Both the position numbers and the translations under genes were made by a program. From a virus: a stretch of 64,000 nt of DNA. The notes beneath the pieces were generated by a model. The model did not search any database. It had not been told where the DNA came from and saw nothing but the letters and a program-made list of their open reading frames with translations. The stretch spans positions 1-64,000 of IMG/VR virus record IMGVR_UViG_3300034691_000040. One strand, 5' to 3'. Below are positions 8,747 through 49,485 of this stretch, one piece after another (position 1 is the first letter of the stretch; each line of letters starts with the position of its first letter).

Positions 8747-8775
8747 TTGATATGTCCCCACCGGAGCTAAGTGAA

Positions 8776-11017: not shown

Positions 11018-11026
11018 CAGCATAAG

Positions 11027-11068
11027 CACCTACTGCGAGAGAGTCTCGCAGTAGGTGTCTCCTTTTTA
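11027..11068 (+). terminator. strong terminator
   Basis: A perfect 14-bp stem (11027-11040 with 11044-11057) is followed by CTCCTTTTT. It ends the membrane-protein unit. Unlike most hairpins here it lacks TATG. Confidence 0.9.
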
Positions 11069-11114
11069 TTTTCTACAAAAACGGATGTTCCTATAACTTT
11101 CGGAGCACGACAAC

Positions 11115-11894
11115 ATGAAATACTTACATCAAGATGATGCTAAACACCTAGAAATCATGGAGGGGTTTGCTAAAGGCCCCCTCACGATCGCTGAGCTGCT
11201 GATCAAGCGTGTCATTGCATTCTTCCATGGGTACGAGTACACTTCCGATAGCAGTGTCCATGCGGCCTGCTTGCAGGAAGAACTCCAGCTGCGTCAAGAG
11301 ATTGCAGACAGTGACCAGATCAATGCTGAAGTAAAAGCATTGGCGCTAAAGGCACTGAAAGACCATTTAGAATTTCCAGGTGGTCCGCTCGATCAACTGA
11401 AGTCTCGTTACCCTCGTGTGCAGCATGAAGGCATGGTGAAGTCAGGATTTGCGACACTGCTTCACAAACATGGTGATGCGTACATGGAACAAGTGATCGA
11501 ATACTTGCGTGATTTGGATGCTCTGATTAAAGAGCTTCCAGCCAATCAGGTCCCAGGTTACTTTGTCCATACGCCATCTACTCCTCATTGGAAGCAGATG
11601 CGCGAATATGCATTGTCCGATACCCCACCAACTAACCCTGTCTCATTCTTTGGGTGCATCCTCTCAGATGAGCTACAGGCTAAAGTAACGTCGTTCTTTG
11701 AGCGTAGCATCATCAGCGCCGAAGCGTGGCGTACAACGGTCTGTGAGAACGACCTGACCAGTGCTGCATCGGTAGGGGTAAGCTTCAAGATCGAATATGT
11801 GGCTGATGTACTCGCTCCTTCTAAGAACGAACCTGGATCTGCAACCTGGATCAATGTGAGTACTGAAGGTCGGCATTACAGCTTCTACGTTTGA
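11115..11894 (+). CDS. hypothetical protein, 259 aa
   Basis: Function not recognised. Single-gene unit between two terminators; the ATG lies 12 bases after TTTCGGAG. The first half is helical and acidic, and residues 80-120 contain a long helix rich in Glu, Ala and Leu (INAEVKALALKALKDHLEF). The C-terminal part looks more beta-like (SVGVSFKIEYVADVLAPS). Confidence 0.65.
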   Translation: MKYLHQDDAKHLEIMEGFAKGPLTIAELLIKRVIAFFHGYEYTSDSSVHAACLQEELQLRQEIADSDQINAEVKALALKALKDHLEFPGGPLDQLKSRYPRVQHEGMVKSGFATLLHKHGDAYMEQVIEYLRDLDALIKELPANQVPGYFVHTPSTPHWKQMREYALSDTPPTNPVSFFGCILSDELQAKVTSFFERSIISAEAWRTTVCENDLTSAASVGVSFKIEYVADVLAPSKNEPGSATWINVSTEGRHYSFYV

Positions 11895-11897
11895 CCA

Positions 11898-11942
11898 CAC
11901 CCACGGTTCGCCGTGGGTGACCTCTACGCATCTCTTTTTTTT
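11898..11942 (+). terminator. strong terminator
   Basis: A 9-bp stem (11898-11906 with 11911-11919) with a TTCG loop and an eight-base T-run at 11935-11942. Confidence 0.88.
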
Positions 11943-11944
11943 GT

Positions 11945-12235
11945 AGTGGCTAATTAATACTACTATGTATTACGAGTTCTTTTACAACCTAAAACTTTAA
12001 GCTAATCTTCACAGTAAGTCGTTTGTGCGACAGCTCCCTGTTGAAAGGCACTCTTACAGACCTCAGTCTGACTTAGGCTTTGTTCCTCGAACATAGTCGG
12101 CTTTCCAAACGATGCAATATACAACGTAAAGCATTCAAAGGACTCTTTGTGCTGACAACGCTTTCAATTGGTGCGCGCGTTTGGTCTGACCTAACACCCT
12201 TACAGGCAATTGGCTGACTTCGGTCAGCCTTTATG
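11945..12235 (+). ncRNA. candidate non-coding RNA 1 (ends in terminator)
   Basis: There is no credible frame on either strand. The stretch starts just after the terminator at 11898-11942 with an AT-rich block (TTGTAG, 17 bases, TATGTA) that could be a promoter. It contains several short complementary pairs, such as GTCG-TTTGTG-CGAC near 12018, and ends at a terminator: 7-bp stem 12212-12218 with 12223-12229, TTCG loop, then TTTATGC. It is therefore likely to be transcribed as a discrete short RNA. It matches no RNA family I recognise. The 5-prime end is a guess. Confidence 0.45.
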
Positions 12236-12257
12236 CTGCATTCTGTAATAGGTTGAT

Positions 12258-12287
12258 TTGTAAGAAGTTACTTCCCGTATCTATAAT
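12258..12287 (+). promoter_or_regulatory. sigma-70-like promoter for RNA candidate 2
   Basis: TTGTAA (12258-12263), 18 bases, TATAAT (12282-12287). It is the best host-type promoter I found, and it lies in the gene-free stretch just upstream of a string of hairpins. Confidence 0.45.
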
Positions 12288-12293
12288 CTGAAT

Positions 12294-12513
12294 AGAAATT
12301 TCTCTCCAGGGCAGTTGTAGAGAATCTTCGGTTACCTAATCCTGTAACACCGAAGCGGGTATAGGTGAGATAAGCGTTCGGGCGTACGCTGGTTTCTAAA
12401 GGATAGTTTGACGCTTAGCGTTTAACCGTCAGCCACTTATGGGCGTAAGTGGCTGGTGGATGTGCGTTGGGGGTGGTGTAGAAAACAAGCACCCTTCACG
12501 GGGTGCTTTTTAT
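12294..12513 (+). ncRNA. candidate structured non-coding RNA 2 (five hairpins plus terminator)
   Basis: About 220 bases with no gene but dense secondary structure. There is a palindrome at 12294-12303; a 10-bp stem with a 2-base bulge (12326-12335 with 12344-12355); a 5-bp stem (12373-12377 with 12386-12390); a 4-bp stem (12411-12414 with 12418-12421); a perfect 10-bp stem (12430-12439 with 12446-12455); and an 8-bp terminator (12487-12494 with 12501-12508) followed by TTTTTATGCCG. A TATAAT-type promoter lies just upstream. A discrete regulatory RNA, or a leader of the abundant protein at 12578, fits best. Confidence 0.5.
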
Positions 12514-12577: not shown

Positions 12578-13102
12578 ATGGCAAAGGTAAACCTCACACT
12601 CAGCGCCTCCGCTAACGTCCTGGCCCTGATCAATGCCGCCAACCCAGCGCTGAACGCAACCGATACCCAAGTTACTCTGGGTACTCCTTCGGTTGCTGCC
12701 GGTACTGGCGGCCGTAACACCAGCCTCATCGTTACCGCCGTCTCCAACCAAGGCTTCAGCGGCGAGCAGATCTTTGCTTACACCCGTCAAGCCCTGGCTT
12801 CCGGCGCCGCAATCGCCACTGCAAAAGCAGTGCCGTTCGCCATCGCTCCAGGCGACACCAACGCTCAGATTCTGACCAAAGCAGCCACCGCTCTGGGTCT
12901 GCTGGAATCGGAACTGACCCTCGCCAACATCGTTCAGCCTGTGAACGAAACCACCCCAGGTTCGGCCGATGTCGTGGCCAACGTGGCTAGCCTGCTGTAC
13001 ACCGGCACCTACGCCGCCACCCTGACCGTACCGGATGCAGACGTCCCTTTGGATGAAGCTGCGACCGTGACCGATCTGAGCGGTTTCGACGCAGAGGCCT
13101 AA
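12578..13102 (+). CDS. abundant virion protein, short-form member of the paralogous family
   Basis: A 174-residue protein with the family signatures: an N-terminal helix (VLALINAAN), TSLIVTA near residue 48, the core G-x3-I-x-x-Y-x-R (FSGEQIFAYTRQAL), a middle helix ending LTLANI, ASLLYTGTYAATLTV, and the ending LSGFDAEA that echoes LDGFDPS of the protein at 14397-14951. Codons are strikingly optimised (mostly C- or G-ending), like the capsid gene at 34541, so it is probably made in large amounts. AAGAAGG lies before the ATG. It is the only family member on the plus strand. Its place in the particle is unknown. Confidence 0.6.
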   Translation: MAKVNLTLSASANVLALINAANPALNATDTQVTLGTPSVAAGTGGRNTSLIVTAVSNQGFSGEQIFAYTRQALASGAAIATAKAVPFAIAPGDTNAQILTKAATALGLLESELTLANIVQPVNETTPGSADVVANVASLLYTGTYAATLTVPDADVPLDEAATVTDLSGFDAEA

Positions 13103-14396: not shown

Positions 14397-14951
14397 TCAT
14401 GAAGGATCGAAGCCGTCAAGATTGGTTTCTGAGGCCAGATCTGCAAGGGATGGAGTCGATCCAGAGGCGTTAAGAGTCACCTGCGAGCCTGGATTATAAT
14501 ACGCCGATGTCGACACAGCTGTCAGAGTAATCTGACCACCTGCTGTACCGATCGTTGTATTGGCCACATCCTTTTGTTCCAGTGCGATACCAAACTTGGT
14601 ATTGATCGCCGATAGCGCTGCGTATACGTTTGCATACGTGCCTGTCAATGTCATCTCTTTCCCTGTAAAAGCAGAAGCGAGATCGGTCCGGTTATACCGA
14701 AAGGTATATGTTCCCTTATACCCTTTACCTACCACAGATGTCAGTAGGACGCTACTGTTAAACAGCAAGTCCCCTACGCTAACCGCGGGGTCGGCAATGG
14801 TGATTTGGGCACTTGTTATCGTAGTGCCCTGCTCACGGTTGATGGCCGCGAGTAATCCAACAGAACCTGCCACCGAGAAAGGCGGTAAGTTAGCAATGGA
14901 GTACAATGCGAACGCATCAAGCGAGCGTAAAACGAATTGTGGGTTAGCCAT
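14397..14951 (-). CDS. virion-protein paralogue, short form
   Basis: A 184-residue member of the repeated family and last gene of the minus-strand array. Visible landmarks: VGLLAAINREQG (helix 1), DPAVSVGDLL, SVVGKGYKGTYTFRYNRTDLASAF (core G-x3-F-x-Y-x-R-x-x-L), STSAYYNPGSQVTL and the C-terminal TNLDGFDPS. It lacks the C-terminal HYN domain of the longer members. The ending is closest to the plus-strand protein at 12578. The precise role is unknown; a virion structural protein is inferred from context. Confidence 0.6.
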   Translation of the reverse strand: MANPQFVLRSLDAFALYSIANLPPFSVAGSVGLLAAINREQGTTITSAQITIADPAVSVGDLLFNSSVLLTSVVGKGYKGTYTFRYNRTDLASAFTGKEMTLTGTYANVYAALSAINTKFGIALEQKDVANTTIGTAGGQITLTAVSTSAYYNPGSQVTLNASGSTPSLADLASETNLDGFDPS

Positions 14952-14954
14952 GCA

Positions 14955-16052
14955 TTACACCTTCGGCTTAACTTTGATGGTGAGTCCGGCAATAGCAGGC
15001 TGAGTCCACGCCAAACCTGCTGGCGTTTTCGTCAGCGAGAGCATCCGGTCGTACCATGTCTGAGCTGCCACCATTGTGGTATCGACATCCGCCGATTCCG
15101 TTCCGCCCACGGTGGCACTGATCCCTAAGTGTCCAGTGGTAGCCCCTGTAACCGCCGACCGCCCCTTAACCAACACACCCAGGATCTTCGTATTAAGTGG
15201 AATGACGCTGGCATCATAAGTGATCGAGCCCGCTGTCATTGCCGCATCCGTAGTTGCCGTAGGGGTAGCGAGCGGCGATGTCGGGTTGGCGTACCCTTTT
15301 TTGAATACAGACGAAACGTCGCCAGTACTCGGTGTCCATACCGTAGCCGCAACTGCCGCCACCGGCACCTTCACCACAGTCTGAGAACCCAAGAACTGAG
15401 CTACCTCACCCGATTCCCATTCGACGCAATGAAAATCTCGCCATGAGTAGGTGTGGACCTGTCCTTGCGACGCGCTGTAGTTCGTACCAATACCACCAAA
15501 CGAAAACATTGTCAACAACGCACCTGGCGTCGCACTCACTGCCGTCAGCATCCAAGCCGGCATGGCAATAGCTGGGGCCACCACACCGTCAACTCGGCGA
15601 TTGATCATCCCCGTTGTATAGTTGAGATTGACTTCCAGAAAGTACGATTTATTTGCCGCATATGCAGGTAAATTGGCGGTTGATATCACCGCGACCAAGT
15701 TGGCTTGGTCAGTGTCTGAACACATGCCCAATATAGTGGTGCCAGTAAACACTGTACCAAACTTCATTCGAAGACCTATGTAAATATTAGAACTGGCGGA
15801 TAAATCCCGAACCATGTCTTTAACATTCACGTTTGCCTTAAACCGAAAGCTGCCGTAGTTCACGGTACCGACGTTCAGACTACACAACATCCAACCGTCT
15901 GTCTGCAGAGCCCATGTCGTAGTTGCTTCGGTGTTAGATGCGTATATTTGAAACGGGCCATTAGGCAGCAGGTTGTTTAGCGCTGTAACCGTCCCAGCGC
16001 CAGATACACCTGCCGGTGGCATCTCTAACCCATACAAAGCATGAATCTTCAT
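14955..16052 (-). CDS. LamG/concanavalin-like virion protein A
   Basis: A 365-residue protein. The N-terminal two-thirds look like the jelly-roll (LamG/concanavalin-like) module common in phage virion proteins. The hallmark is near residues 200-245: YSWRDFHCVEWESG..AQFLGSQTVVKVP, then WTPSTGDVS. The tail (YDRMLSLTKTPAGLAWTQPAIAGLTIKVKPKV) matches the usual closing strand of these proteins. Two more members follow upstream (16709, 17679). Such domains often bind carbohydrate or decorate the capsid or tail surface. AAGGAA supports the ATG at 16052. Confidence 0.6.
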   Translation of the reverse strand: MKIHALYGLEMPPAGVSGAGTVTALNNLLPNGPFQIYASNTEATTTWALQTDGWMLCSLNVGTVNYGSFRFKANVNVKDMVRDLSASSNIYIGLRMKFGTVFTGTTILGMCSDTDQANLVAVISTANLPAYAANKSYFLEVNLNYTTGMINRRVDGVVAPAIAMPAWMLTAVSATPGALLTMFSFGGIGTNYSASQGQVHTYSWRDFHCVEWESGEVAQFLGSQTVVKVPVAAVAATVWTPSTGDVSSVFKKGYANPTSPLATPTATTDAAMTAGSITYDASVIPLNTKILGVLVKGRSAVTGATTGHLGISATVGGTESADVDTTMVAAQTWYDRMLSLTKTPAGLAWTQPAIAGLTIKVKPKV

Positions 16053-16064
16053 GAAGTGGGTTCC

Positions 16065-16697
16065 TTACGTCCAGAGGATCGTGTCAGATTTGAAAGCCGA
16101 AGCCAACGTTGGAGTGAAGCCAACCTGAGTCGTATCTCCGGGTATAAAAAACCGACTCGTAGAAGCTGCCGTGATCGTGACTTCAACCGAACCGGCTGCG
16201 ATGGGTACATCGACGATATCGTCAGTTGTCAATACCATGCCGCTGGCCGTGTTGATTGCCGCGATCAGACCTTGGGTCGAAGTAGCCGATCCGATGACGA
16301 TCGCGGTCAAGTTGGCTGGGATACGCGCCAACGATACGCGACTGTAATAGAAGTACATCGACCCTGATAACGCCGACGTTGCCCCCGCTGTGACATTTAC
16401 GCGGCTATTGTGTAGGATCGTTTCAGAACCAGCATAGCTCTCCGGCGCGCCGAAGGTAAACTGACTGGCTGGTCGAATGCTTTTGCTTTGCGCTAGCACA
16501 AGGTTCGCTAACGCTGTGATGCCATTTACACCTTTTGGAAGTGCGATATCCGACACTAACGCATAGCCCTGAACGTTTCTCAGAGTCAGGATATTTGGTT
16601 CTGGGTAAGTCGCGTAAGCTGTGACGCCACTCACTGCAGCAAGGTTGGGTTCTTTATAGAGCCCGTATGTCGTGATACCAGAAATGGAAGCAGACAT
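16065..16697 (-). CDS. virion-protein paralogue with N-terminal short repeats
   Basis: A 210-residue protein. Residues 1-60 hold two or three imperfect copies of a 19-residue unit: ISGITTYGLYKEPN, VSGVTAYATYPEPN, then VQGYALVSDIALPK. The rest is the family unit: the core reads ALSGSMYFYYSRVSLARI, followed by LIAAINTASGMVLTTDDI and STSRFFIPGD. It lies between two LamG-like genes, and the repeats resemble the closing strands of those proteins, so it may be a fusion of the two families. GGAGG precedes the ATG. Confidence 0.6.
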   Translation of the reverse strand: MSASISGITTYGLYKEPNLAAVSGVTAYATYPEPNILTLRNVQGYALVSDIALPKGVNGITALANLVLAQSKSIRPASQFTFGAPESYAGSETILHNSRVNVTAGATSALSGSMYFYYSRVSLARIPANLTAIVIGSATSTQGLIAAINTASGMVLTTDDIVDVPIAAGSVEVTITAASTSRFFIPGDTTQVGFTPTLASAFKSDTILWT

Positions 16698-16708
16698 GCG
16701 TTACCTCC

Positions 16709-17659
16709 TTATACATCCGGTGTCAAGATAACATCGGTGACATCAAGCACAGCGTTTGTCCAAGGCTGACCACCTGGGGCTGTTGCAAAAACACCGACTG
16801 GGTTGTTGTAGGTGATTACGTTGCTCGCAGCGCCGCTAACGTTTGCGCCCAGTAACTCGTCAGATCCATTTTTAAGCTTTACGGCACATGCGACCGTGTT
16901 AGCAATGGTTGATGCGGCCGCCACAGTCAGCTCAATCGCCGAAGCCGTAATCCCCGCCGGTAGGTCTGGGCGTAGCGACGCAATCAATGGATCTTTACTG
17001 ACACCAGATATACCTTTGGTAGTGTCCAGTAAGTCAAGGCTTCCGATCAGCGGGTTGGTGTTTGACGTTGTCCAACCCGTACCACTGACGGCATCGAACT
17101 GAATTCGTTTAACAACCTGCGCGCCGAGGAAACCACCGGTCCCACCCTGATCATCGTTGATGTAGATATCTCGCCAGTAGAACGCATTGGCCCCACCGCC
17201 TTTACCTTCTAGCCAAACGACACCACTTCGACTTCCAGCCGCACTGACCGAGGATATAGCAACACCGTTAACTCTGCGATCGATGTTACCTGTAGCCAGG
17301 TCCCAGCTAAACTCCAGATAGGCCGTTGTGCCTGGGACCATCGTCGCCAAAATATCTGAGGTGTTAAATACAGCAAGGCCTTGAACATATATGCACGCTA
17401 TCTGCCTAGTCCAAGCAGTTAAGATCAACCTCACCCCAAACCAGAGTTTCCCAACCGGAAGTGCACTATAACTAGCAAGTGGAACACTTAGCCGTTCTTG
17501 AGCAACCGCAGTGGTATTAAGAGCACCTACTCGACCATTCGATACAATCATTAAAGCGTTAGTTCCGGAGGTGTGTACGAGACCATGGTCGGCATTATTA
17601 ATCCATGTAGTAACGGCTTGAGTATAATGATCAAACCCAATCATTGCTCTTATAGACAT
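16709..17659 (-). CDS. LamG/concanavalin-like virion protein B
   Basis: A 316-residue relative of the proteins at 14955 and 17679. It begins MSIRAMIGFDHYTQ, has the hallmark YWRDIYINDDQGGTGGFLGAQVVKRIQ, then GWTTSNTN, and closes with PWTNAVLDVTDVILTPDV. The order of elements (jelly-roll, W-R-D-h-x-h segment, FLG, closing strand) is shared by all three. Probably a surface protein of the particle. Confidence 0.6.
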   Translation of the reverse strand: MSIRAMIGFDHYTQAVTTWINNADHGLVHTSGTNALMIVSNGRVGALNTTAVAQERLSVPLASYSALPVGKLWFGVRLILTAWTRQIACIYVQGLAVFNTSDILATMVPGTTAYLEFSWDLATGNIDRRVNGVAISSVSAAGSRSGVVWLEGKGGGANAFYWRDIYINDDQGGTGGFLGAQVVKRIQFDAVSGTGWTTSNTNPLIGSLDLLDTTKGISGVSKDPLIASLRPDLPAGITASAIELTVAAASTIANTVACAVKLKNGSDELLGANVSGAASNVITYNNPVGVFATAPGGQPWTNAVLDVTDVILTPDV

Positions 17660-17678
17660 GCTTTTTTAACTCCGTTAA

Positions 17679-18740
17679 TTAGACAGCCGTATCTGGCGTT
17701 AATTTGAAGGACACTGCTGCAATTTTAGCCGTGTTCCAATTGCCGCCATCTAGAGCTTTTGAATAGACGCCTAATGGTAAACCATATTTCAAACCACCAG
17801 CCGGGGTCAGTGCTGCAATTGCCGGTAGGTTAACGCCGCTAGCGCTAATCTCTACTTTTGTAGGACTGACTGAAATGGTGGTACTGGCACCTGCCATACT
17901 GAAAGCCACACCTAACACGCGCGCACCTGTTATTGCCGAACCGCTTAGTCCAACCGTCAATGGCGTTTTATCGGTCGGTGAATTAATCGTTACGGCACTT
18001 GGCTGAACCAGGTTCATGGTATCGGTTAATGACGCAGATCCAGAACTTGGCGCCCAGCCGGCACCCGCAGCACTAGCCACACTCAACGGTACGATACGGG
18101 CTTGACCGATCGAGCCAGTGATACCATCTCCGGCTATATCGTCGATTACGTGCACATCACGGATAGCGAAACGCGTTGTGCCGTTAGTGCCGATACCGCT
18201 CAGTACAAAGTTCAGCACCAACTTACCGGCATCCCAGGCTGTAGCACCAGCCGCTGACAGAGTGAACGTGCGAGTAGCGGCCTGCGCGACACCATTGACA
18301 GTATAACTGGTAAGGCCTGTCGTGCGGGTATACGTGACCTCAACAAACAGTTCAGCACCTACCGCCTGAGTCGCTAACCAAACGGCCGATGTGGTGAATA
18401 GATAATCAACACCTACGTTTGGAGCACCTTCTTGAGCAAAACTCAACACTTGGTAGTTACCGGCGATCGCCGATAGTACTTTTAGCTTGAAGCAGATCGT
18501 GATGCGCGCGGCGGAGGCAGGTACGAACCCATTAAGAAACATGGGTACATTACTGATTATACCTGAGGTTGACGCCATGCCAGAGATGTAACCATTCTGG
18601 TCGATGCACGCCTTCGTTGGGTTTTGACCAAGACCAGCACCCGGAATGCCTGAACTGGTCCACCAATCGGCGAATGTTGTATTCACTACCGGATTGGTTA
18701 CCTTCAACGCACTGTCGGTGCCAAAGATTGCACGAAGCAT
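17679..18740 (-). CDS. LamG/concanavalin-like virion protein C
   Basis: A 353-residue protein starting MLRAIFGTDSALK, with the hallmark FAIRDVHVIDDIAGDG..GSIGQARIVPL and GWAPSSGSASL, closing with WNTAKIAAVSFKLTPDTAV. It is the first and longest of the three LamG-like genes in transcription order. The C-terminal 120 residues are Ala-, Thr- and Ser-rich strands, like other phage surface proteins. Confidence 0.6.
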   Translation of the reverse strand: MLRAIFGTDSALKVTNPVVNTTFADWWTSSGIPGAGLGQNPTKACIDQNGYISGMASTSGIISNVPMFLNGFVPASAARITICFKLKVLSAIAGNYQVLSFAQEGAPNVGVDYLFTTSAVWLATQAVGAELFVEVTYTRTTGLTSYTVNGVAQAATRTFTLSAAGATAWDAGKLVLNFVLSGIGTNGTTRFAIRDVHVIDDIAGDGITGSIGQARIVPLSVASAAGAGWAPSSGSASLTDTMNLVQPSAVTINSPTDKTPLTVGLSGSAITGARVLGVAFSMAGASTTISVSPTKVEISASGVNLPAIAALTPAGGLKYGLPLGVYSKALDGGNWNTAKIAAVSFKLTPDTAV

Positions 18741-18745
18741 GTTTG

Positions 18746-19150
18746 CTACTCCTCTACGGCAACTGGTACTGGCTCATCCAGCGGTGGCTCCTCAGTGCTC
18801 ACCACAGGCGCTTTAGCGGCGGGTTCGTGCCAGCACATGTAGATAGTACCAGCGGGAGCTGTGGACACCTCTGGGAACTTCAGACCGAGAGCGTATTTGA
18901 AGAAGCTGAAGGTGGGTAACGAGACCTTGTTCAGATCGTTAAACACCACTTCTACGCCATTGAGGGAGTATTCTGTTCCATACTCCTCCATGTTCCACTT
19001 ATCCTTATCCGCCTGATCAGCGCCTTCTGAAAGTACCGCCGCAATCAAACGTTGATTGCTCTCATCGAGCAGACCCAGTGGGACAGCTGCCAGTTCATTA
19101 CCGTGCAGGGTGAAGTCCTGACGGATCAGGTAATTGGGCCAATTTGACAT
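18746..19150 (-). CDS. free-standing C-terminal (HYN-type) domain of the paralogue family
   Basis: A 134-residue protein. Residues 50-110 (KWNMEEYGTEYSLNGVEVVFNDL...FKYALGLKF....AGTIYMCWHEP) match the C-terminal domain of the long paralogues, which reads W...(Y/F)..GA.V.YNG......Y..V..L....G.LYLHYN. The N-terminal unit is absent. A proline- and acid-rich tail follows. It shows that the second domain can exist alone. Confidence 0.5.
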   Translation of the reverse strand: MSNWPNYLIRQDFTLHGNELAAVPLGLLDESNQRLIAAVLSEGADQADKDKWNMEEYGTEYSLNGVEVVFNDLNKVSLPTFSFFKYALGLKFPEVSTAPAGTIYMCWHEPAAKAPVVSTEEPPLDEPVPVAVEE

Positions 19151-19168
19151 GTTGAAAATCCTCTGGCG

Positions 19169-19663
19169 TTAGAAGCCGATTAACTGATTGCTGTTAAACG
19201 CCGTGGTGATGTCCGGCGCAGCTGGGAACTTCAAACTGGCAGTACCGAGCCAACCAAGACTTGTTGAGGTGGCTTCAAGCACTGCGACCACCTTTCCGTT
19301 AACGGTAGCGGACGCATGCTCAACTAAACTTGCAGCCGTAATCGGGACGTTAATGTACCCTATTACTAGAGGGAGCCATTGGGCGACTGCCAAGTTCTCT
19401 GTGATGCTGCAGCTAGTCAGGTCAAAGTTCTCCAATCCGCTAAGATTCAGACGGTCGTAAAACACTGTCGTGAACCCGATTGCGATGGTTGAAGAATCCG
19501 CTACTTTAAAATCAACCGCGGTGTTTTTACCGTACGTGGTTAACTCTGCAGCTGTTGGTGTTCTTGGCGAAGCGAACGATAGCTCTGTGGTTGAGAACGA
19601 GACACCGCCGGCAACGTTTACCATAGCCGTCAGGTCTGCCGCACTTGTTACGAAAATGCTCAT
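19169..19663 (-). CDS. virion-protein paralogue, short form
   Basis: A 164-residue protein with the family core (IAIGFTTVFYDRLNLSGLENF), the second signature STSLGWLGTASLKF and an ending DITTAFNSNQLIGF. The spacing between signatures is shorter than in its neighbours. It is followed immediately by the free-standing C-terminal-domain gene, so the pair at 19663-18746 resembles one long paralogue split into two genes. Confidence 0.6.
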   Translation of the reverse strand: MSIFVTSAADLTAMVNVAGGVSFSTTELSFASPRTPTAAELTTYGKNTAVDFKVADSSTIAIGFTTVFYDRLNLSGLENFDLTSCSITENLAVAQWLPLVIGYINVPITAASLVEHASATVNGKVVAVLEATSTSLGWLGTASLKFPAAPDITTAFNSNQLIGF

Positions 19664-19671
19664 AGCTGACC

Positions 19672-20577
19672 CTACGCGTTATAGTGAATGATGATCTTGC
19701 CAGCAAACCAGCTATTTGCCCCACTCTGAATTACGATGCACCGAGTGTACTTAGCCGAGTTACCTTCAGGAATTGCGACGTTAGGCAAGGTATACTTGTA
19801 CCAGATCACTCCGGTAATGCCACCGGATTCCGTAACCGTTCCTGTGTTCCAGTCGGTCCGCGACGTGTTGGCCAGCAAAAAGTTTACAACCTGCGTTACC
19901 GTGGAATCTGTGGATGACGGCGCGCTGCTGGAAGCAAGAGCCTCAAGAAGAGTTTTAAGACTGCTTGCATCTTGACAGTAGACCAGGAACTCACCTTGCG
20001 GTTTTCGCCCAGCCGTGGTGAAGTCGTTGCCGCCCGGATAGAGCCTGCCAACTAGCGCCCGGTTTGCGTCAGTAATGATGGAGGTGATTAGACGCTTACC
20101 ACTCACCCAATTGAGGACGAAACTACCTTTGTAACATAACGAGGTAGCTTTTATTGCAATGGTAGTGTTGCCGCCATTGATCGCCCCAGTGTTAGTGAAA
20201 TCAGCATCTACGATATTGATACCGTATTGGGATCTGAAACTACCTTTCCAAACAGCCTCCGCCAGCGTCGTCCCTGCGGAATAATCAGTAAGCTTAATAA
20301 CCATGGATTTGAATATGGTCGTCATGTCGATGCGGCGATACCGAATAGTCTGGTTACCTATCTTACCAGCGCCTGGCGCTGAGGAGACTGTAACCGTAGT
20401 ATCGGTATTATAAGCATCACCCGCTACCACGCTAACCGAAGTCGGCGCACTAAACTGAATAGTGCCTTTTGGAAACTGTGCTGTGAATCCAGGGTTACTG
20501 TATTCGATCAGCTTATAGAGCAGGTCGGTGCTCGATAATTTGTAATCTGTTGGTACCGGCAGACCTATGTTAGACAT
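19672..20577 (-). CDS. virion-protein paralogue, long form (type A)
   Basis: A 301-residue protein (ATG 20577, 8 bases after AGGAG). N-terminal unit: LLYKLIEYSN, GKIGNQTIRYRRIDMTTIF, ATSLCYKGSFVLNW. Linker: LVGRLYPGGNDFTTAGRKP, also present in the protein at 21522. C-terminal domain ends GKIIIHYNA. The shared GGNDFTT-x-GR linker marks these two genes as recent duplicates. Confidence 0.65.
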   Translation of the reverse strand: MSNIGLPVPTDYKLSSTDLLYKLIEYSNPGFTAQFPKGTIQFSAPTSVSVVAGDAYNTDTTVTVSSAPGAGKIGNQTIRYRRIDMTTIFKSMVIKLTDYSAGTTLAEAVWKGSFRSQYGINIVDADFTNTGAINGGNTTIAIKATSLCYKGSFVLNWVSGKRLITSIITDANRALVGRLYPGGNDFTTAGRKPQGEFLVYCQDASSLKTLLEALASSSAPSSTDSTVTQVVNFLLANTSRTDWNTGTVTESGGITGVIWYKYTLPNVAIPEGNSAKYTRCIVIQSGANSWFAGKIIIHYNA

Positions 20578-20597
20578 GCCCATCTCCTGAAGTAATC

Positions 20598-20621
20598 GAT
20601 GAGCGCCGCTTGGCGCTCATC
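20598..20621 (-). terminator. hairpin between array genes
   Basis: A 10-bp stem (20598-20607 with 20612-20621) with a 4-base loop, followed on the plus side by TATGCC. It sits between two minus-strand array genes, so it may attenuate the long transcript. Confidence 0.55.
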
Positions 20622-20631
20622 TATGCCCTAG

Positions 20632-21510
20632 TTATACCGCGTCAGGATTGAACGGGTCATTATAGTGCAGGTACAACAGACCAGCCGGAGTGGTGACGGT
20701 TGCATCAAGCTGCAACACGAGCACGTACTTGTACGCTGGGTTGGTTGGCAACGATGTCGAGTTCAGACCGTTGCTTACAACGGTTGCGCCAAACACGTTC
20801 CAGGTGGTAACGCCGGAAGTGTTCGCCCAAAGAGCTTTACCCGACCCGACGTCAACCGCTTTGAATGCCGTAACGAGGGCATCCGCTTTTGCCGATACCA
20901 GCACGCCGGTGGCGAGGGTTGCGATATCGGAGAAGTACGAAGTGAAGTCGTAAGGGTACATGTACAGAGGACCGTACACATCGGTATCGCTGGCGGTTGG
21001 GTAGTTCAGACCATTCAGCGAAGTAACCGTGATCACCTGATCGATTGCAGCACCACCGACTTTCACGATCAGATCGGTTTGCCCAACCCAACCCAAGCTA
21101 CCTGCCTTGGCTTTCAGTGTGGCAGTCAGGGTATTATCGCCATTGTCCACCAATGCGAGATCTTCCAGATCGTCATTGCCGAACATGATACCGGTCCAGT
21201 TGAGTAACGCCGGATACAGGCCATGTACGGTGGTGACACCGTATGCCGAACATTGGAAGCCGGGCATGTTAGTCGCCGACAAGGCGCTCAGACTCAAACG
21301 ATCGTAGGTCAGTGTCTGAGTGCCCTGATACAGACCACCCTGCACTGCGGTGAGTTTAATTGCGGTGTTGTGCGTAGTGACCTGACCGTGCCAAGTACCG
21401 GACACTGGCTGTGGTGTTCCGTAAAGGAAATCGCCTGCAACGTATGCCGTGGAGTTTGCTGCGTTCAAAGCCGCCAGGAATTCACTGAGCGGCTGATTCA
21501 TATACGACAT
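20632..21510 (-). CDS. virion-protein paralogue, long form (type B)
   Basis: A 292-residue protein. N-terminal unit: FLAALNAANS, GDFLYGTPQPV, GGLYQGTQTLTYDRLSLSAL, AGSLGWVGQTDLIVK, VTSLNGLNYPTASD. C-terminal domain: TWNVFGATVVSNGLNSTS, YKYVLVLQLD, AGLLYLHYNDP. The NGLNYP ending of the first unit and the VFGATV strand are shared with the gene at 23252, its closest relative here. Confidence 0.65.
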   Translation of the reverse strand: MSYMNQPLSEFLAALNAANSTAYVAGDFLYGTPQPVSGTWHGQVTTHNTAIKLTAVQGGLYQGTQTLTYDRLSLSALSATNMPGFQCSAYGVTTVHGLYPALLNWTGIMFGNDDLEDLALVDNGDNTLTATLKAKAGSLGWVGQTDLIVKVGGAAIDQVITVTSLNGLNYPTASDTDVYGPLYMYPYDFTSYFSDIATLATGVLVSAKADALVTAFKAVDVGSGKALWANTSGVTTWNVFGATVVSNGLNSTSLPTNPAYKYVLVLQLDATVTTPAGLLYLHYNDPFNPDAV

Positions 21511-21521
21511 TGGGTCTACCC

Positions 21522-22442
21522 TCAGACGTTAAAGTGAATGTAGTTGCGGCCGTTACCATAGGTTGCCACAAGAGCCTCTGGAGTATCCCAGGTCAGCAGA
21601 CGGTTGTAGTACTTGGAGTTAGCCTCTGGGTACTTGGTCGACGGCAGAGTGATGATTTCAACCCCAGCGAACATTGCAGTCACCCACGCAGACTGGGTAG
21701 GGAACGCAGTACCGAATGCGGCGTTACACTGGTTGAACACTGCGTTCAGGAATGTGGTGGTAGCCACGTTTTGAACCATCAGGTTCGGGTAACCCGAGTA
21801 AGGAGTGGTGCTCAGCAAGGCTGACCAATCAGTCGAATACATCAGGTTGTTCATGACAGGACGGCGACCTTCGGTGGTGAAGTCGTTGCCGCCTGGGAAC
21901 AGGCGCGCATTGAGATCAGTCACGGTGATCATGGAAGCCAGATCCTGAGGTGCACTTTTCCATTTCAGCTGAACTGTGCCGATATAGCCAAGGCTGGTAA
22001 CCTTAGTTTGCACGGTAACTGTAGACGTATAGAAACCATCTTCCAGAGTGTTGCCTCGGGTGATGTTGACATTAGCAACATCATTTTCTGTCAGGTTCAG
22101 ACCGTACTGCGCGTTGATGATCGGCAGTAGTTGGTACAGTGTAAACACGACAGTATAGGAGGCTGTCTGAGTAGCGGAGTAGCGGTTGATCTGAAGCACC
22201 TGGCCACGGAACAGTACCGCCAAGTCAAGGCGGCGGTAGTTCAGTGACTTACGCCCAATGTAATCACCACCGATCGAAACGCAGTTGATCGATGTGTTCA
22301 TTGCAGCGTTGCCAGAGACCGTCGCTGCCTTCACATCGGACAGTGCCATGTTCAGTGGCGTGAGCGGTACCGGCAGCAGCGGGTTGGCCTGATTGATGAG
22401 GTCGTAAACCAGCTCGCTCGATGGCTTGTTATATAAAGGCAT
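21522..22442 (-). CDS. virion-protein paralogue, long form (type A)
   Basis: A 306-residue protein. N-terminal unit: LVYDLINQANP, NTSINCVSIGGDYIGRKSLNYRRLDLAVLF, LLPIINAQYGLNLTENDV, VTSLGYIGTVQLKWK. Linker: ARLFPGGNDFTTEGRRP. C-terminal domain ends RNYIHFNV. Very close in layout to the protein at 19672, with which it shares the GGNDFTT-x-GR linker. Confidence 0.65.
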   Translation of the reverse strand: MPLYNKPSSELVYDLINQANPLLPVPLTPLNMALSDVKAATVSGNAAMNTSINCVSIGGDYIGRKSLNYRRLDLAVLFRGQVLQINRYSATQTASYTVVFTLYQLLPIINAQYGLNLTENDVANVNITRGNTLEDGFYTSTVTVQTKVTSLGYIGTVQLKWKSAPQDLASMITVTDLNARLFPGGNDFTTEGRRPVMNNLMYSTDWSALLSTTPYSGYPNLMVQNVATTTFLNAVFNQCNAAFGTAFPTQSAWVTAMFAGVEIITLPSTKYPEANSKYYNRLLTWDTPEALVATYGNGRNYIHFNV

Positions 22443-22447
22443 CTTGA

Positions 22448-23239
22448 TTAAACCTCGTCAAGCAAATTGTAGTGAAAATACAGAGGCCCGAAAATGTAGG
22501 CGCTGTTAACTACCGGTTGAATGGTGACCCGATCAAACGCTGGGTTGCTATCAGGAACATCAGCAGTAGCGGAATCAATCAGCTGCCCTTTGGCCCATGA
22601 TGGGATCTGCAAATAAATGCAAGCCGATTGAAAAGTTGCCCAATCGGTATACGACAGTGTCAACGGATTGATCTTTAACGAATCACGAAGACTGGTAAAG
22701 TCAATGCCCCAAGTTGCCATCCGTCCCGACTGCTTATTAAACGCAGGGTCGTTAGGGTGGTTAAACAACTTGAGCAAACGAATGCCGATCACTGACTCAA
22801 GCAGGGTTCTGCCGTACATGAGCTGAATCTGAACCTGCCCCACAAACCCAAAGCTTTCAGCCTTAGGAATAAGCGTCAATGATGCTGTCTCATTGAGAGC
22901 CAATGTGGGCGGTGTAAACGGTTCAAGGTCATCGATCGTAATGAACAGACCCAGCTGAGTATTCACCATGTCGATCACCATTTGTGTGGTGAACGGTACG
23001 ATGTTTCTTAACTGAAGACCTGCCAGTGCGTCGGTGAGGCTAATCCGCTTATACAGAAGCGTCTGACTACCCGTATACACACGACCAAGCACACCCTCGA
23101 TGGTAACCTGAGTGTTGTGCTTTTCATTACCTTCAAGGACCTGAGGGACCTGTGGGGTAATGTTGATCAGTGTGAGTGGACGTTTAGGAGAGTTCTTCTC
23201 GTTGGCCTCATTAAGAAGCCTTGTAATACTGTTGTCCAT
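22448..23239 (-). CDS. virion-protein paralogue, long form
   Basis: A 263-residue protein from the ATG at 23239, 8 bases after AAGGAG (an upstream TTG is less likely). Unit landmarks: ITRLLNEANE, NTQVTIEG..RVYTGSQTLLYKRISLTDAL, NTQLGLFITIDDLEPF, AESFGFVGQVQIQLM. The linker MATWGIDFTSL matches MATWGFDFTED in the gene at 24094. The ending is GPLYFHYNLL. Confidence 0.65.
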   Translation of the reverse strand: MDNSITRLLNEANEKNSPKRPLTLINITPQVPQVLEGNEKHNTQVTIEGVLGRVYTGSQTLLYKRISLTDALAGLQLRNIVPFTTQMVIDMVNTQLGLFITIDDLEPFTPPTLALNETASLTLIPKAESFGFVGQVQIQLMYGRTLLESVIGIRLLKLFNHPNDPAFNKQSGRMATWGIDFTSLRDSLKINPLTLSYTDWATFQSACIYLQIPSWAKGQLIDSATADVPDSNPAFDRVTIQPVVNSAYIFGPLYFHYNLLDEV

Positions 23240-23251
23240 CAGCAAGGCTCC

Positions 23252-24082
23252 TTAATCGACAGCAGGCGGGTTATAGTGCAGGTACAACGACCCACTCAAG
23301 CCTACCGAGTTGGTTTCATTGAGTTGAACAATGATCACTTTCTCGTAATCGGTGTTGACATCAGTTCGGCCAGTGGTGACCCCGGCGTAAGTAACCGTTG
23401 CCCCCATTACGCTATAGCGCCCGGCTGCTGTTGACGACCACACGTTTTTAGTGATCGCTGTCAGCACATCACGCACCACGTCGATCTGATCGACGCCAAC
23501 CAGCACGGTTTCCAACGCCACTGCGGAGGCGGAGAAATTCTGCCAGTAAGAGTAGGCGGCGGCGTATGGTTTATCGATCGAAGGCGCTGGGTAGTTCAAG
23601 CCAGGCAGTGACGTTACCGTTAGGAACGCCTCCAGCGGCCGCTGGCCTTGCGCAACGGTGATATCCACACTACCAATCCAATAACGACTGGTCGTCTTCG
23701 CTGTAAGCGTTATAGTGCCCACGCCGTCAACTAAGCCGGTTGGACCGTCAGTGAAGTCATCGGCCGTGAAGTTCAATCCGTAAAGCTTATTCAGGCGATT
23801 GGCGACATCCAGGATCGTGGTGAGGTTGTAGCCTTTGATGGACGTATCGATCAACGTACCCAAGTCGGCCAGATCAAGACGCTTATACAGGATCGGCACA
23901 GAACCATCGTAGGTACTTTGGACGTCCTTGGCGGTGATCGTCATGCTGGTGTTTTCACCAGACGCCCCTGTCGGAATAACTACAGGATCAGCGTACAAGT
24001 ATTCTGCTTCAACCAGAGTCACATTGTTCTGTGTCTTGATTGCCTTGAGTATTGCCTCAAGTGGCATTTCGTACAAAGCCAT
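23252..24082 (-). CDS. virion-protein paralogue, long form (type B)
   Basis: A 276-residue protein. Unit landmarks: ILKAIKTQNN, EYLYADPVV, NTSMTITAKDVQSTYDGSVPILYKRLDLADL, LNKLYGLNFTADDFTDG, TTSRYWIGSVDITVA, VTSLPGLNYPAPS. C-terminal domain: YSVMGATVTYAGVTTG, YEKVIIVQLNE, GSLYLHYNPP. It pairs with the gene at 20632. Confidence 0.65.
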   Translation of the reverse strand: MALYEMPLEAILKAIKTQNNVTLVEAEYLYADPVVIPTGASGENTSMTITAKDVQSTYDGSVPILYKRLDLADLGTLIDTSIKGYNLTTILDVANRLNKLYGLNFTADDFTDGPTGLVDGVGTITLTAKTTSRYWIGSVDITVAQGQRPLEAFLTVTSLPGLNYPAPSIDKPYAAAYSYWQNFSASAVALETVLVGVDQIDVVRDVLTAITKNVWSSTAAGRYSVMGATVTYAGVTTGRTDVNTDYEKVIIVQLNETNSVGLSGSLYLHYNPPAVD

Positions 24083-24093
24083 AAATGAAGCCT

Positions 24094-24900
24094 CTACGCC
24101 CGGTTGAAGTGGAAGTACGCGTCGCCGTTGAACTCAGGCGTTACGACGTTCTTTTGAATGATGACGTGACTGAAATCCGTGTTAGCGCCAGGGACGTCTT
24201 TAGTTGCGTAAAGCGTGACGCCAATCCCAAACCCGAAAACGTTGACGGGGAAATTAGGAAACCCGTTCTGAGCCATTATTGCCTTGACTTCTTGAGGGAA
24301 CCACCAGCCCTCACGATAGATCTTCAGCTTTACTTGGTCTTCGGTGAAGTCAAACCCCCACGTCGCCATGGACATGGATTTCTTGTTACTGACGATCGGA
24401 TCGGGGAATGCCAATACGGGCAGGGTCCGACTTACTACGGCTGAAGTAATGTCCGGCCGCAGACGAATAAATTGAACAACCATCCGTCCTTCGTATGCCA
24501 GGGAATATGGCTGAATAACGAATTGCAGGTTAGCCTGCTCGTTACCGCCCAGCCAAACAATAGACTGGTCAACGATGTCATTGGGTTCTAACGACAGACC
24601 TGTCGCCTTATTGATAACTGGCAACAGTCTAGTTAAACTGGTTTGGCCAATAGCCTCAACCACAGGCCGGATCTCTTTGAAGATAATCGAGAGATTCAGG
24701 CGCTTATAGTTAAGTACTGCGTATCCTTCGTAGTCCTCATTGTTAAACTGAGTGACTACAGGGAGTCGCGTAACTCCCCCCGCTACCGATTTAGGAAGAC
24801 CGTAATACAGATCGCCAGGCTCCAATGGCACGGGTAAAGCGTTGTTCGCATTGATAAGATTCATCAATGCTTGTTCAGATGTTCCTTGTAGAAGGAGCAT
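24094..24900 (-). CDS. virion-protein paralogue, long form
   Basis: A 268-residue protein; the ATG at 24900 is chosen because AGGAG lies 7 bases upstream, whereas a start at 24966 has no ribosome site and falls inside a hairpin. Unit landmarks: ALMNLINANNALPVPLEPGDLYYGLP, EDYEGYAVLNYKRLNLSIIF, LLPVINKATGLSLEPNDI, PYSLAYEGRMVVQF. Linker MATWGFDFTED. The C-terminal domain ends GDAYFHFNRA. Confidence 0.65.
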   Translation of the reverse strand: MLLLQGTSEQALMNLINANNALPVPLEPGDLYYGLPKSVAGGVTRLPVVTQFNNEDYEGYAVLNYKRLNLSIIFKEIRPVVEAIGQTSLTRLLPVINKATGLSLEPNDIVDQSIVWLGGNEQANLQFVIQPYSLAYEGRMVVQFIRLRPDITSAVVSRTLPVLAFPDPIVSNKKSMSMATWGFDFTEDQVKLKIYREGWWFPQEVKAIMAQNGFPNFPVNVFGFGIGVTLYATKDVPGANTDFSHVIIQKNVVTPEFNGDAYFHFNRA

Positions 24901-24936
24901 GACGTATCTCCTGACTAAATCATAACCGACATAGGT

Positions 24937-24978
24937 GTGTAGACGAGGATGAGGTAAACACCCCATCCTCGTCTACAC
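24937..24978 (-). terminator. long bidirectional hairpin
   Basis: A perfect 15-bp stem (24937-24951 with 24964-24978) with a 12-base loop, between the minus-strand genes at 24998-25546 and 24094-24900. It could isolate the strongly codon-optimised upstream gene from the rest of the array. Confidence 0.65.
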
Positions 24979-24997
24979 GGGGTAACTACTGATGCAC

Positions 24998-25546
24998 TTA
25001 CGGCGTGGTAGGCGGAGCGGCGTAAGTCAGGCCGTCCATTTCTGCGTCAGGGATCGCAGTGGCCAGATCGACGTCGTCAGCTTTCAGCGTCAGCGTGATG
25101 CTGCCGGTGTAGATCAGGGAGTCAGCCTTGACAACGACCTGTACAGGGTGGGTTTCGTTTACCGCACCGGTGAAGGTCGGCAGATCGCCGTCAGTGAAGT
25201 CATCGCCAGTCAGGGCAATGTTCAGGCGGGCATTCAGCTCTGGAATCAGGTCAGCGATCTTGGTGGCATCACCGATGCTGAACACCAGGTCGCGGCCGGT
25301 AGCCGACGCAATGAATGCAGCACCGATGTCAGTACCGAGGTGCATGCGGTTGTATCGGATGATGCGGGTGTTTTTGTAACCCGAACCTGCAACTGCAACG
25401 AGGGAAAGGCTGGTGTTTTTGCCACTAGGCTCAACTTCTGGCAGACCTGCCCATGCGAAGGTTGCCAGGGTGAAACCTGCGCCAGACTTGGCATTGACCA
25501 TATCCAGAATAATCTGTTTTGGCGCTTTGGTTAAATCGTTAGCCAT
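24998..25546 (-). CDS. virion-protein paralogue, short form, codon-optimised
   Basis: A 182-residue protein with a textbook copy of the unit: ILDMVNAKSGAGFTLATFAWAGLP, NTSLSLVAVAGSGYKNTRIIRYNRMHLGTDI, LIPELNARLNIALTGDDFTDGDLP, ADSLIYTGSITLTLK and the ending PDAEMDGLTYAAPPTTP. Codon choice is more G/C-ending than in the surrounding array, suggesting high abundance. A 15-bp hairpin follows it. Function within the particle unknown. Confidence 0.65.
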   Translation of the reverse strand: MANDLTKAPKQIILDMVNAKSGAGFTLATFAWAGLPEVEPSGKNTSLSLVAVAGSGYKNTRIIRYNRMHLGTDIGAAFIASATGRDLVFSIGDATKIADLIPELNARLNIALTGDDFTDGDLPTFTGAVNETHPVQVVVKADSLIYTGSITLTLKADDVDLATAIPDAEMDGLTYAAPPTTP

Positions 25547-25625
25547 GAAAAGAACTCCAAGGGTGTAGTGGGACTATGGTCGAATACTGACACATAGAAT
25601 TGAAGACTATTTGTGCGATTGCCGC

Positions 25626-26159
25626 CTACACCGGAGGGGGTGCGTACGTCAAACCATCCATCTGCACATCCGGAATAGCAAAATAAAGATCGTTGCTATC
25701 ACGGATCAATTTTACAAGCAATGTGTCCTTATAGACCAACGATGCAGGTAACACTTGAATCAAGACATCCACCCCACCTTCATCATCCTGGATCTCGGGG
25801 AGGTTAAAGTCAATGATGCGGTCGGCAGTCAACTTTATCTGTAACCGCTCATTTAACTCTGGGAGCAGGTCGCTGATGAATTGCTTGCCGAACGGATCAA
25901 ACGTTAAATCGGTAACCCCGGCTTCTACAAACTTATTCAGGGGTACCCGGTTGTAGTAAAACGTTTGGCTACCGCGGTACTGATAGCCGGGTCTTGCAGT
26001 TGCTACGATCATGGTGTTACGGTTAATGTCCACAGTCGGCGTAAAGACCTGAGGGTTACCGAAACTTACCATTAAAGGATATAAACTTTTATTGCTGTTG
26101 TCGCGGCGGATCAGATCGATCAATACATCAATCTCATCGCGAGTATAATCAGTAGCCAT
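25626..26159 (-). CDS. virion-protein paralogue, short form
   Basis: A 177-residue protein. Landmarks: VLIDLIRRDNSN, NTMIVATARPGYQYRGSQTFYYNRVPLNKFV, LLPELNERLQIKLTADRIIDFNLP, PASLVYKDTLLVKLI, PDVQMDGLTYAPPPV. Very similar in layout and ending to the gene at 24998. Second gene of the minus-strand array in transcription order. Confidence 0.65.
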   Translation of the reverse strand: MATDYTRDEIDVLIDLIRRDNSNKSLYPLMVSFGNPQVFTPTVDINRNTMIVATARPGYQYRGSQTFYYNRVPLNKFVEAGVTDLTFDPFGKQFISDLLPELNERLQIKLTADRIIDFNLPEIQDDEGGVDVLIQVLPASLVYKDTLLVKLIRDSNDLYFAIPDVQMDGLTYAPPPV

Positions 26160-26184
26160 GACTTACGATCTCGTGAGGTGGGGA

Positions 26185-26673
26185 TCAATCCAATCCGTTA
26201 AGGACATTATTAGGGAACGCTACTGACAACTCCTCTATCGTTATTTCAGCGATAGATACAACCAGCTCACCCGTCCAAATTAAAGAATTACCAACCACCT
26301 TAATGGTAAAGAGGTCATCCTTAAATGTAAGTGATTCTATTTCACTGGCATGGATCACAAAGTTGTATTTGTTCTTCAGGGCAATCAGCAGACCAGCGCC
26401 GTTCCACGACTCCACCTGAACGCTAGGTAGCGTAATGCCGATATCTGCAAACGCTTGTTGCATATCCAAGCGGGTGTAATAGTAGACGTAACTGCCTTCA
26501 ACAAACTGAGTGTCGGCTGTGACGCCAACCATGGTGTTAGTGCCGCCTTCAAAATCCCCAGCCGTAGGGTCAGTGAACGTTAAGTCTTTTGCAGTCAACG
26601 TTACATTGAATTCGTCCAGGTAGCTCTGGTTTGTCGACACGATTAAATCGGTCAACATTTGCTTGTTGGTCAT
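26185..26673 (-). CDS. virion-protein paralogue, short form (first of array)
   Basis: A 162-residue protein from the ATG at 26673; an upstream GTG at 26739 would add 22 residues but overlaps the conserved promoter-like motif. Landmarks: LTDLIVSTNQS, VTADTQFVEGSYVYYYTRLDMQQAF, LLIALKNKYNFVIHASEI, GNSLIWTGELVVSI, NNVLNGLD. The ribosome site is weak. It is transcribed away from the plus-strand operon starting at 26788. Confidence 0.55.
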   Translation of the reverse strand: MTNKQMLTDLIVSTNQSYLDEFNVTLTAKDLTFTDPTAGDFEGGTNTMVGVTADTQFVEGSYVYYYTRLDMQQAFADIGITLPSVQVESWNGAGLLIALKNKYNFVIHASEIESLTFKDDLFTIKVVGNSLIWTGELVVSIAEITIEELSVAFPNNVLNGLD

Positions 26674-26720
26674 CGGGTTGTACCTGGGGAAGTTATCGAG
26701 TACATAAAAGAGCAGCATAC

Positions 26721-26747
26721 TTAACTTTTTTACAGTCACACATCACG
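26721..26747 (+). promoter_or_regulatory. conserved 27-base motif, copy B
   Basis: 26 of 27 bases match copy A at 9854-9880; the single change is TTTATAG to TTTACAG. It ends exactly 40 bases before the ATG at 26788. It lies between divergent units and probably drives the plus-strand operon from 26788. Confidence 0.6.
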
Positions 26748-46194: not shown

Positions 46195-46202
46195 TTAAAG
46201 AC

Positions 46203-49452: not shown

Positions 49453-49485
49453 GGTTTACTACCTGATCGTTTAGGAGAGCAGTTG

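Follow-up and report, generated by a model that had tools for sequence, protein, structure and literature searches.

Salmonella giant phage SPN3US encodes a large set of related virion proteins, family B, of which 20-21 were detected by mass spectrometry and assigned to the head with the help of tailless mutants (PMC5694885, PMC5105663, PMC10052503). Its authors describe it as potentially the largest paralogue family of any single phage genome (PMC5105663), and we found no function for it in the literature examined. From phage phiKZ, the protein gp127 has been solved in a PDB entry (9xqd) entitled 'The structure of outer peripheral region in the phage phiKZ baseplate complex'. Here we analyse bases 1-64000 of a 126,847-base IMG/VR virus contig (IMGVR_UViG_3300034691_000040), hereafter the window, in which a minus-strand gene array, together with genes outside it, encodes relatives of both, belonging to Pfam family DUF7941 (PF25613). 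We suggest, with some reserve, that DUF7941 is a modular virion-docking domain whose copies probably fill non-equivalent sites on the exterior of the particle. The family, its array and the size of that array were already known from SPN3US and its relatives. The apparent novelties are a link between the SPN3US head family and a phiKZ baseplate protein, the fusion evidence for docking, the position-specific orthology and a conserved split gene. No account of DUF7941/PHIKZ127 function was found in the open-licence papers searched, among which a single one, on Spiroplasma and Rickettsia genomes, names DUF7941; papers on 9xqd may exist beyond them, and the claim to novelty is limited accordingly.

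DUF7941 genes of the window and their solved and described relatives

At the curated Pfam cut-off of 27 bits, 16 window genes were assigned to DUF7941, with scores of 36 to 179 bits (E 7e-9 to 1e-52), and all ten of the DUF7941 genes tested also matched PHROG 1037 and 2935 ('virion structural protein'). A six-frame search of the whole contig found 17 DUF7941 stretches, none outside the window. Counted as genes the family again numbers 17: 13 in the array (14.4-26.7 kb, minus strand), three at 44.5-47.2 kb and one on the plus strand at 12.6 kb. Twelve of the array members carry an N-terminal domain (N-domain) and one, at 18746-19150, consists of a C-terminal domain (C-domain) only; the latter was recognized by a profile built from the window sequences (E 5.6e-6), and also in the joined frame. 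An earlier annotation of this DNA, made from its letters alone (the first-pass annotation), had described at least ten adjacent minus-strand paralogues, three more at 44543-47156 and one on the plus strand at 12578. All of the open reading frames that it listed score above the cut-off, and the profile check that it proposed recovers the family, the C-only gene included. Its total of fourteen relatives was a slight undercount, and its single paralogue array proved to be mixed, because three of the genes (14955-16052, 16709-17659 and 17679-18740) form a second paralogous family, here called family X. The genes are as follows, array positions being numbered p1 to p16 and lengths given in amino acids (aa).

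12578-13102, plus strand: DUF7941 N-domain protein, 174 aa (Pfam E 3.7e-16)
14397-14951, minus strand: array p16, DUF7941 N-domain, 184 aa (Pfam E 7.6e-20)
14955-16052, minus strand: array p15, family X, 365 aa, predicted lectin-like (paralogue of p12 and p13; no Pfam family)
16065-16697, minus strand: array p14, DUF7941 N-domain with an N-terminal extension, 210 aa (Pfam E 7.7e-15)
16709-17659, minus strand: array p13, family X, 316 aa (by paralogy)
17679-18740, minus strand: array p12, family X, 353 aa (AlphaFold model with ConA-like PDB matches)
18746-19150, minus strand: array p11, stand-alone C-domain, 134 aa (window-built profile; FLC9 orthologue 35%)
19169-19663, minus strand: array p10, DUF7941 N-domain, 164 aa, the other half of p11 (Pfam E 7e-9)
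19672-20583, minus strand: array p9, DUF7941 N+C, 303 aa (Pfam E 4.5e-35)
20632-21510, minus strand: array p8, DUF7941 N+C, 292 aa (Pfam E 1.4e-52)
21522-22442, minus strand: array p7, DUF7941 N+C, 306 aa (Pfam E 7.1e-38)
22448-23245, minus strand: array p6, DUF7941 N+C, 265 aa (Pfam E 1.8e-31)
23252-24082, minus strand: array p5, DUF7941 N+C, 276 aa (Pfam E 1.3e-47)
24094-24966, minus strand: array p4, DUF7941 N+C, 290 aa (Pfam E 1.9e-40)
24998-25546, minus strand: array p3, DUF7941 N-domain, 182 aa (Pfam E 1.9e-26)
25626-26159, minus strand: array p2, DUF7941 N-domain, 177 aa (Pfam E 1.7e-26)
26185-26739, minus strand: array p1, DUF7941 N-domain, 184 aa, start codon uncertain (Pfam E 3.4e-16)
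44543-45583, minus strand: portal-side copy 1, DUF7941 N+C, 346 aa (Pfam E 6.9e-20)
45583-46194, minus strand: portal-side copy 2, DUF7941 N-domain, 203 aa (Pfam E 3.6e-15)
46203-47156, minus strand: portal-side copy 3, two tandem DUF7941 N-domains, 317 aa (Pfam E 8.9e-18, two stretches)
47173-49452, minus strand: homologue of phiKZ gp128 (PDB 9xqs; phmmer E 8.3e-95)
49483-52311, plus strand: portal protein, homologous to phiKZ gp129 and Goslar gp36 (phmmer E 1.1e-75 and 1.6e-72)

Neighbouring array genes are separated by 3 to 79 bases. The gene at 12578 has an orthologue in the tree, at 18433 in related contig L038 (52% identity). Searching the contig with Pfam Portal_T4 gave no useful information.

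The N-domain, of about 170 residues, is an internal duplication of a helix-strand-strand unit: HHalign matched profiles of its two halves, based on some 250 sequences, at a probability of 93% across 59 columns. Both of the signatures singled out at first pass (G-x3-h-x-Y-x-R and S-L-x-Y-x-G-x3-L) are present, but they represent this one element occurring twice. The C-domain, of about 110 residues, follows the N-domain in six array genes and one portal-side gene, and in most cases ends in G-x-L-Y-x-H-Y-N or a near variant. In the AlphaFold2 model of p8 the N-domain is good and the C-domain poor, with a predicted local distance difference test score (pLDDT) of about 45.

phiKZ gp127 was the sole solved relative detected by profile (E 1.7e-19). 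It was also the only PDB fold match at E <0.001 (Foldseek E 9.9e-5, template-modelling score (TM) 0.63 over the solved part). The first-pass description of these proteins as relatives of a structural protein is borne out by the detection of the SPN3US relatives in virions by mass spectrometry (PMC5694885) and by gp127, solved in the particle. The two phages also share the surroundings of the gene. The phiKZ genes run gp126, gp127, gp128 and then the divergent portal gene gp129; in the window the series is 44543, 45583, 46203, then the gp128 homologue at 47173 and then the portal gene; and in SPN3US the portal gene gp81, gp82 and the DUF7941 gene gp83 stand in matching order. Because this neighbouring gene order corresponds, we place the 44.5-47.2 kb cluster in a locus shared with phiKZ and SPN3US, which, judged from gene order, is probably the older location of DUF7941. 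phiKZ differs in having two or three recognized DUF7941 copies and no array, and the window in having three portal-side genes, one with two domains, its array lying elsewhere. gp126 has no significant solved relative, and gp128 has itself been solved (9xqs, 36za, 11lx). Genes for a RuvC-like resolvase and a DUF7208 protein (42964-43608 and 43658-44533, minus strand) lie directly downstream of the portal-side cluster.

SPN3US follows the same plan as the window, with a tandem array of about 17 genes and scattered copies, one of them beside the portal gene. Its family B (gp83, gp138-154, gp160/161 and gp237) is homologous to the DUF7941 proteins of the window: our profile matches gp138-144 at about 1e-55 to 1e-29, and also gp145, 148, 151, 154, 155, 160, 83 and 237 and an open reading frame at 105.8 kb. 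By the same profile, gp146, 147, 149, 150, 152 and 153 are not DUF7941 by sequence. These six and part of gp145, 148 and 151 (L005) make up a second paralogous family that has been counted in family B; its N-terminus appears fibronectin-III-like by eye, and the order of the genes is a triplet repeated three times. A relation between this interleaved family and family X was undetectable (HHalign 0.1%). The number of copies had seemed striking at first pass, but such a family was already known and is larger elsewhere, as the 20-21 members in SPN3US attest.

The DUF7941 counts for other phages are of raw matches, a raw match being a domain and not always a gene. They were 19 in LucasX, 17 in SPN3US, 15 each in FLC9, Asesino and CR5, 10 in Goslar, 9 in Moabite, 7 in Centimanus, 6 in DT01, 5 in RAY, 3 each in phiKZ and PA1C, 2 in SURPRISE13 and 1 in N1M2, with 12-25 in each of 12 related contigs and 0 in EL, OBP and pTD1. 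The phage appears close to the chimallin (nucleus-forming, phiKZ/SPN3US) group. Chimallin, queried with phiKZ gp54, gave no match in this 126.8-kb fragment; seven of the nine related contigs searched were matched, G006 among them only at E 0.007.

Orthology of the array copies and the divided gene

To compare the array between genomes we used Burkholderia phage FLC9 and the 12 related contigs (13 genomes). Genes p3-p9 have reciprocal-best orthologues in identical order in 13/13 relatives, and p10 and p11 in 12/13; p8 is the most conserved copy, at 43-64% identity. Gene order is disrupted solely in the 3' part, among the X genes and short members: extra family-X genes lie between p8 and p9 in L040 and L042-L044, and relatives differ in how many X and short DUF7941 genes they have at the 3' end. 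Orthologues of the core genes p1-p11 average 40-54% identity, compared with 20-33% for the closest paralogue. Since the lowest single orthologue identities (27-36%) overlap the top paralogue values, the statement that orthologues are closer stands on means, order and tree jointly. In a tree of the two-domain proteins each of p4-p9 forms its own starred clade across the window, L038, L044, L048 and FLC9. The tree came from a short search with the Shimodaira-Hasegawa-like approximate likelihood-ratio test (SH-aLRT) only, and its deep branches are not relied on.

Because the core is colinear, nearly all one-to-one and closer between orthologues than between paralogues on average, these comparisons indicate that the array copies are old and position-specific and are not a recently amplified variable coat. 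FLC9, a phage of Burkholderia glumae, is the closest named phage, and its gp317-gp325 correspond to p3-p11 as nine colinear, one-to-one genes of 29-46% identity. It differs in an additional Laminin_G_3 domain in gp323, the p5 orthologue, and in the distal part of its array, which holds long X and Laminin_G_3 proteins. Seven clades are likewise common to SPN3US, CR5 and Asesino. The sole pair to cross between the lineages is p8 with SPN3US gp143, at weak support (80), and there is otherwise no one-to-one map between the two sets of array positions, which suggests that the window and SPN3US lineages have largely expanded apart. Portal-side copy 1 (44543) groups with its DT01 orthologue (SH-aLRT 99). 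Among the arrangements envisaged at first pass, a set of non-equivalent positions is therefore the best supported, each core copy having its own same-place orthologue in nearly all 13 genomes. A variable outer coat does not hold for the core, although gene content at the 3' end does vary, and we found no evidence for a layered particle.

One N+C unit is divided over two genes, p10 for the N-domain and p11 for the C-domain. p11 has its own ATG, preceded by a Shine-Dalgarno-like AGAGG, and the division is kept in FLC9 and all related contigs except L047, where p10 is joined to p9. The C gene has its own start in every case, with a purine-rich site upstream in most, and the two halves lie in different frames in FLC9, L044, L045, L046 and L049. 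Because each C gene has its own start and the frame differs in these five relatives, the arrangement is a gene fission, its N and C genes each being translated on their own. An in-frame stop separates p10 from p11; that it is read through, or is a sequencing error, is ruled out by the conserved split, the own starts and the out-of-frame halves in relatives. In L047 a single open reading frame (10922-12412) covers the p9 and p10 equivalents; it is known from one contig only, and a sequencing error that removed a stop is therefore possible.

Family X, fusion partners and neighbouring genes

The three family-X genes are mutual paralogues whose window members have no Pfam family. Neither tblastn against the phage collection nor peptide patterns against viral contigs found relatives, which came to light only through the array neighbourhood, and sequence comparison with the PDB gave nothing significant. 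The AlphaFold model of p12 has a pLDDT of 87, and its best PDB matches are mostly concanavalin A (ConA)-like lectins (E ~1e-4). At TM 0.3-0.47 such matches assign a fold to roughly one half of the protein and do not assign a function; a ConA-like lectin fold is thus predicted for the family.

DUF7941 is also joined to other domains, mostly standing N-terminal to its partner. Fusion with X occurs in L044 (14934-16130) and, there with weak DUF7941 pieces, in an FLC9 protein of 1156 aa. Laminin_G_3 is the partner in FLC9 gp323, an FLC9 protein of 1077 aa and L047, and DUF285 in Goslar. In Xanthomonas phage LucasX (L030, L031), where DUF7941 is N-terminal in proteins of 589 to 2021 aa, an 829-aa protein adds an alpha/beta hydrolase and the 2021-aa protein a GTA TIM-barrel domain and Calx-beta repeats. 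Matches in BFVD include a Moabite 'tail fiber protein'. SPN3US gp155 (L005:23170-25347), annotated as hypothetical, combines two N-domains with a Gp38 tail-fibre adhesin domain (PF05268, E 7e-18), and may be regarded as a candidate receptor-binding protein.

Elsewhere in the window, a minus-strand gene at 58891-59694 resembles Gp38-type tail-fibre adhesins (PHROG 2056, E 1e-12), the adhesin type joined to DUF7941 in gp155, and is flanked by phiKZ gp131-family baseplate-fibre genes (57927-58820 and 59706-61049, minus strand). According to Sycheva et al. 2012, as cited in PMC5105663, phiKZ gp131-135 are baseplate-fibre paralogues. They seem analogous to DUF7941 as a paralogous set, located at the baseplate periphery, whose C-terminal parts vary, and differ in belonging to separate PHROGs; the DUF7941 profile showed no convincing link to them (best E 0.0013, against eight sequences only). 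The gene at 2338-3369 (minus strand) gave a weak match, below the cut-off, to phiKZ internal head proteins (PF12699, E 6.6e-5), and 8752-9582 (plus strand), near the array, encodes a protein with two GNAT acetyltransferase stretches.

A proposed docking role for DUF7941 and its alternatives

From these results we infer an exterior location for the array copies, a docking role and one site for each paralogue. In this view the phage is a relative of the nucleus-forming phiKZ/SPN3US group and its DUF7941 genes specify virion proteins, in which the N-domain of about 170 residues attaches to the virion and whatever follows it is payload: the C-domain in the six large core copies, nothing in others, and adhesins, lectins or enzymes in relatives. 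Separate paralogues would occupy separate, non-equivalent outer sites of the particle, gp127-type copies at the baseplate periphery and array-type copies probably at head or neck sites. The docked modules would then hold host-surface-binding proteins, such as the lectin-like family X interleaved with them. Such a role appears to be supported most strongly by where gp127 lies in the solved structure and by the kinds of domain to which DUF7941 is fused. The first-pass suggestion of a giant baseplate or head does not divide cleanly, as relatives have been reported in both (phiKZ gp127 in the baseplate; SPN3US gp138-154 in the head and gp237 in the tail).

Several observations weigh against this proposal. 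It is weakest on where the array copies lie, since their SPN3US counterparts gp138-154 have been placed in the head, the abundant ones labelled 'Head ejection?', and gp141 and gp160 are present in >300 copies (PMC5694885); a head placement suits proteins inside the particle as well as proteins on its surface. gp127, the copy with a structure, is of the portal-side and not the array type, how these types are related is resolved only weakly, and the structure covers only 150 residues of gp127. The p8 C-domain, which we take as payload, is poorly modelled. The payload fusions are putative virion proteins, and in LucasX, which has the largest of them, tail fibres were not visible by transmission electron microscopy (PMC9009655).

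It is conceivable, though on balance doubtful, that the array proteins instead reside inside the head, where they are packaged together with the DNA, and may be ejected into the host, a possibility that has been queried for SPN3US family B. The retention of gp138-154 in tailless particles and the abundance of gp141 and gp160 speak for this, and a second tailless mutant upheld the head designation for nearly all of the family (PMC10052503). The same study moved one member, gp237, to the tail, family B is absent from the list of SPN3US prohead-protease substrates (PMC5694885), gp127 is located in the baseplate periphery, and the fusion partners, including the Gp38 adhesin, are host-surface-binding or glycan-acting. 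A more distant prospect is that DUF7941 serves as a generic assembly or chaperone-like module for fibres and baseplate, with no fixed docking site and each copy matched to one partner. Such matched pairing could explain the one-to-one conservation, and members do lie beside lectin-like and adhesin genes or are joined to them, yet gp127 remains in the finished baseplate and SPN3US members persist in mature particles, some in hundreds of copies.

Least credible is a set of recently amplified, fast-varying coat or adhesin genes that would give antigenic or host-range variation through copy number and recombination. The differences in the 3' part of the array between relatives would suit it. The paralogues, however, have at most about one-third of their residues in common, and the core order fixed in 13 genomes, the orthology and the tree, with one clade per position, refute this explanation for p3-p11. 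A bolder form of the docking proposal, which we consider unlikely, is that the array specifies one ordered hetero-oligomeric appendage. About 11 DUF7941 subunits would each have a single fixed neighbour and gene order would mirror space; the conserved core would be a frame and the variable 3' genes its sugar-binding tips, with one docking domain serving head, neck and baseplate. The L047 p9-p10 fusion and the conserved p10/p11 split would then be traces of subunit adjacency, and the phage lineage would have built a receptor-presenting surface from one duplicated module.

Overall, the link to a solved baseplate-periphery protein and the adhesin, lectin and enzyme fusions give this family a testable role, that of a docking module for host-surface-binding proteins. 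If true, this would account for the ability of giant phages to carry a large number of such proteins together, and would help to annotate dozens of 'virion structural proteins' as well as point to a natural scaffold for adhesins. It would also mean that one family is common to head and tail, which is unusual.

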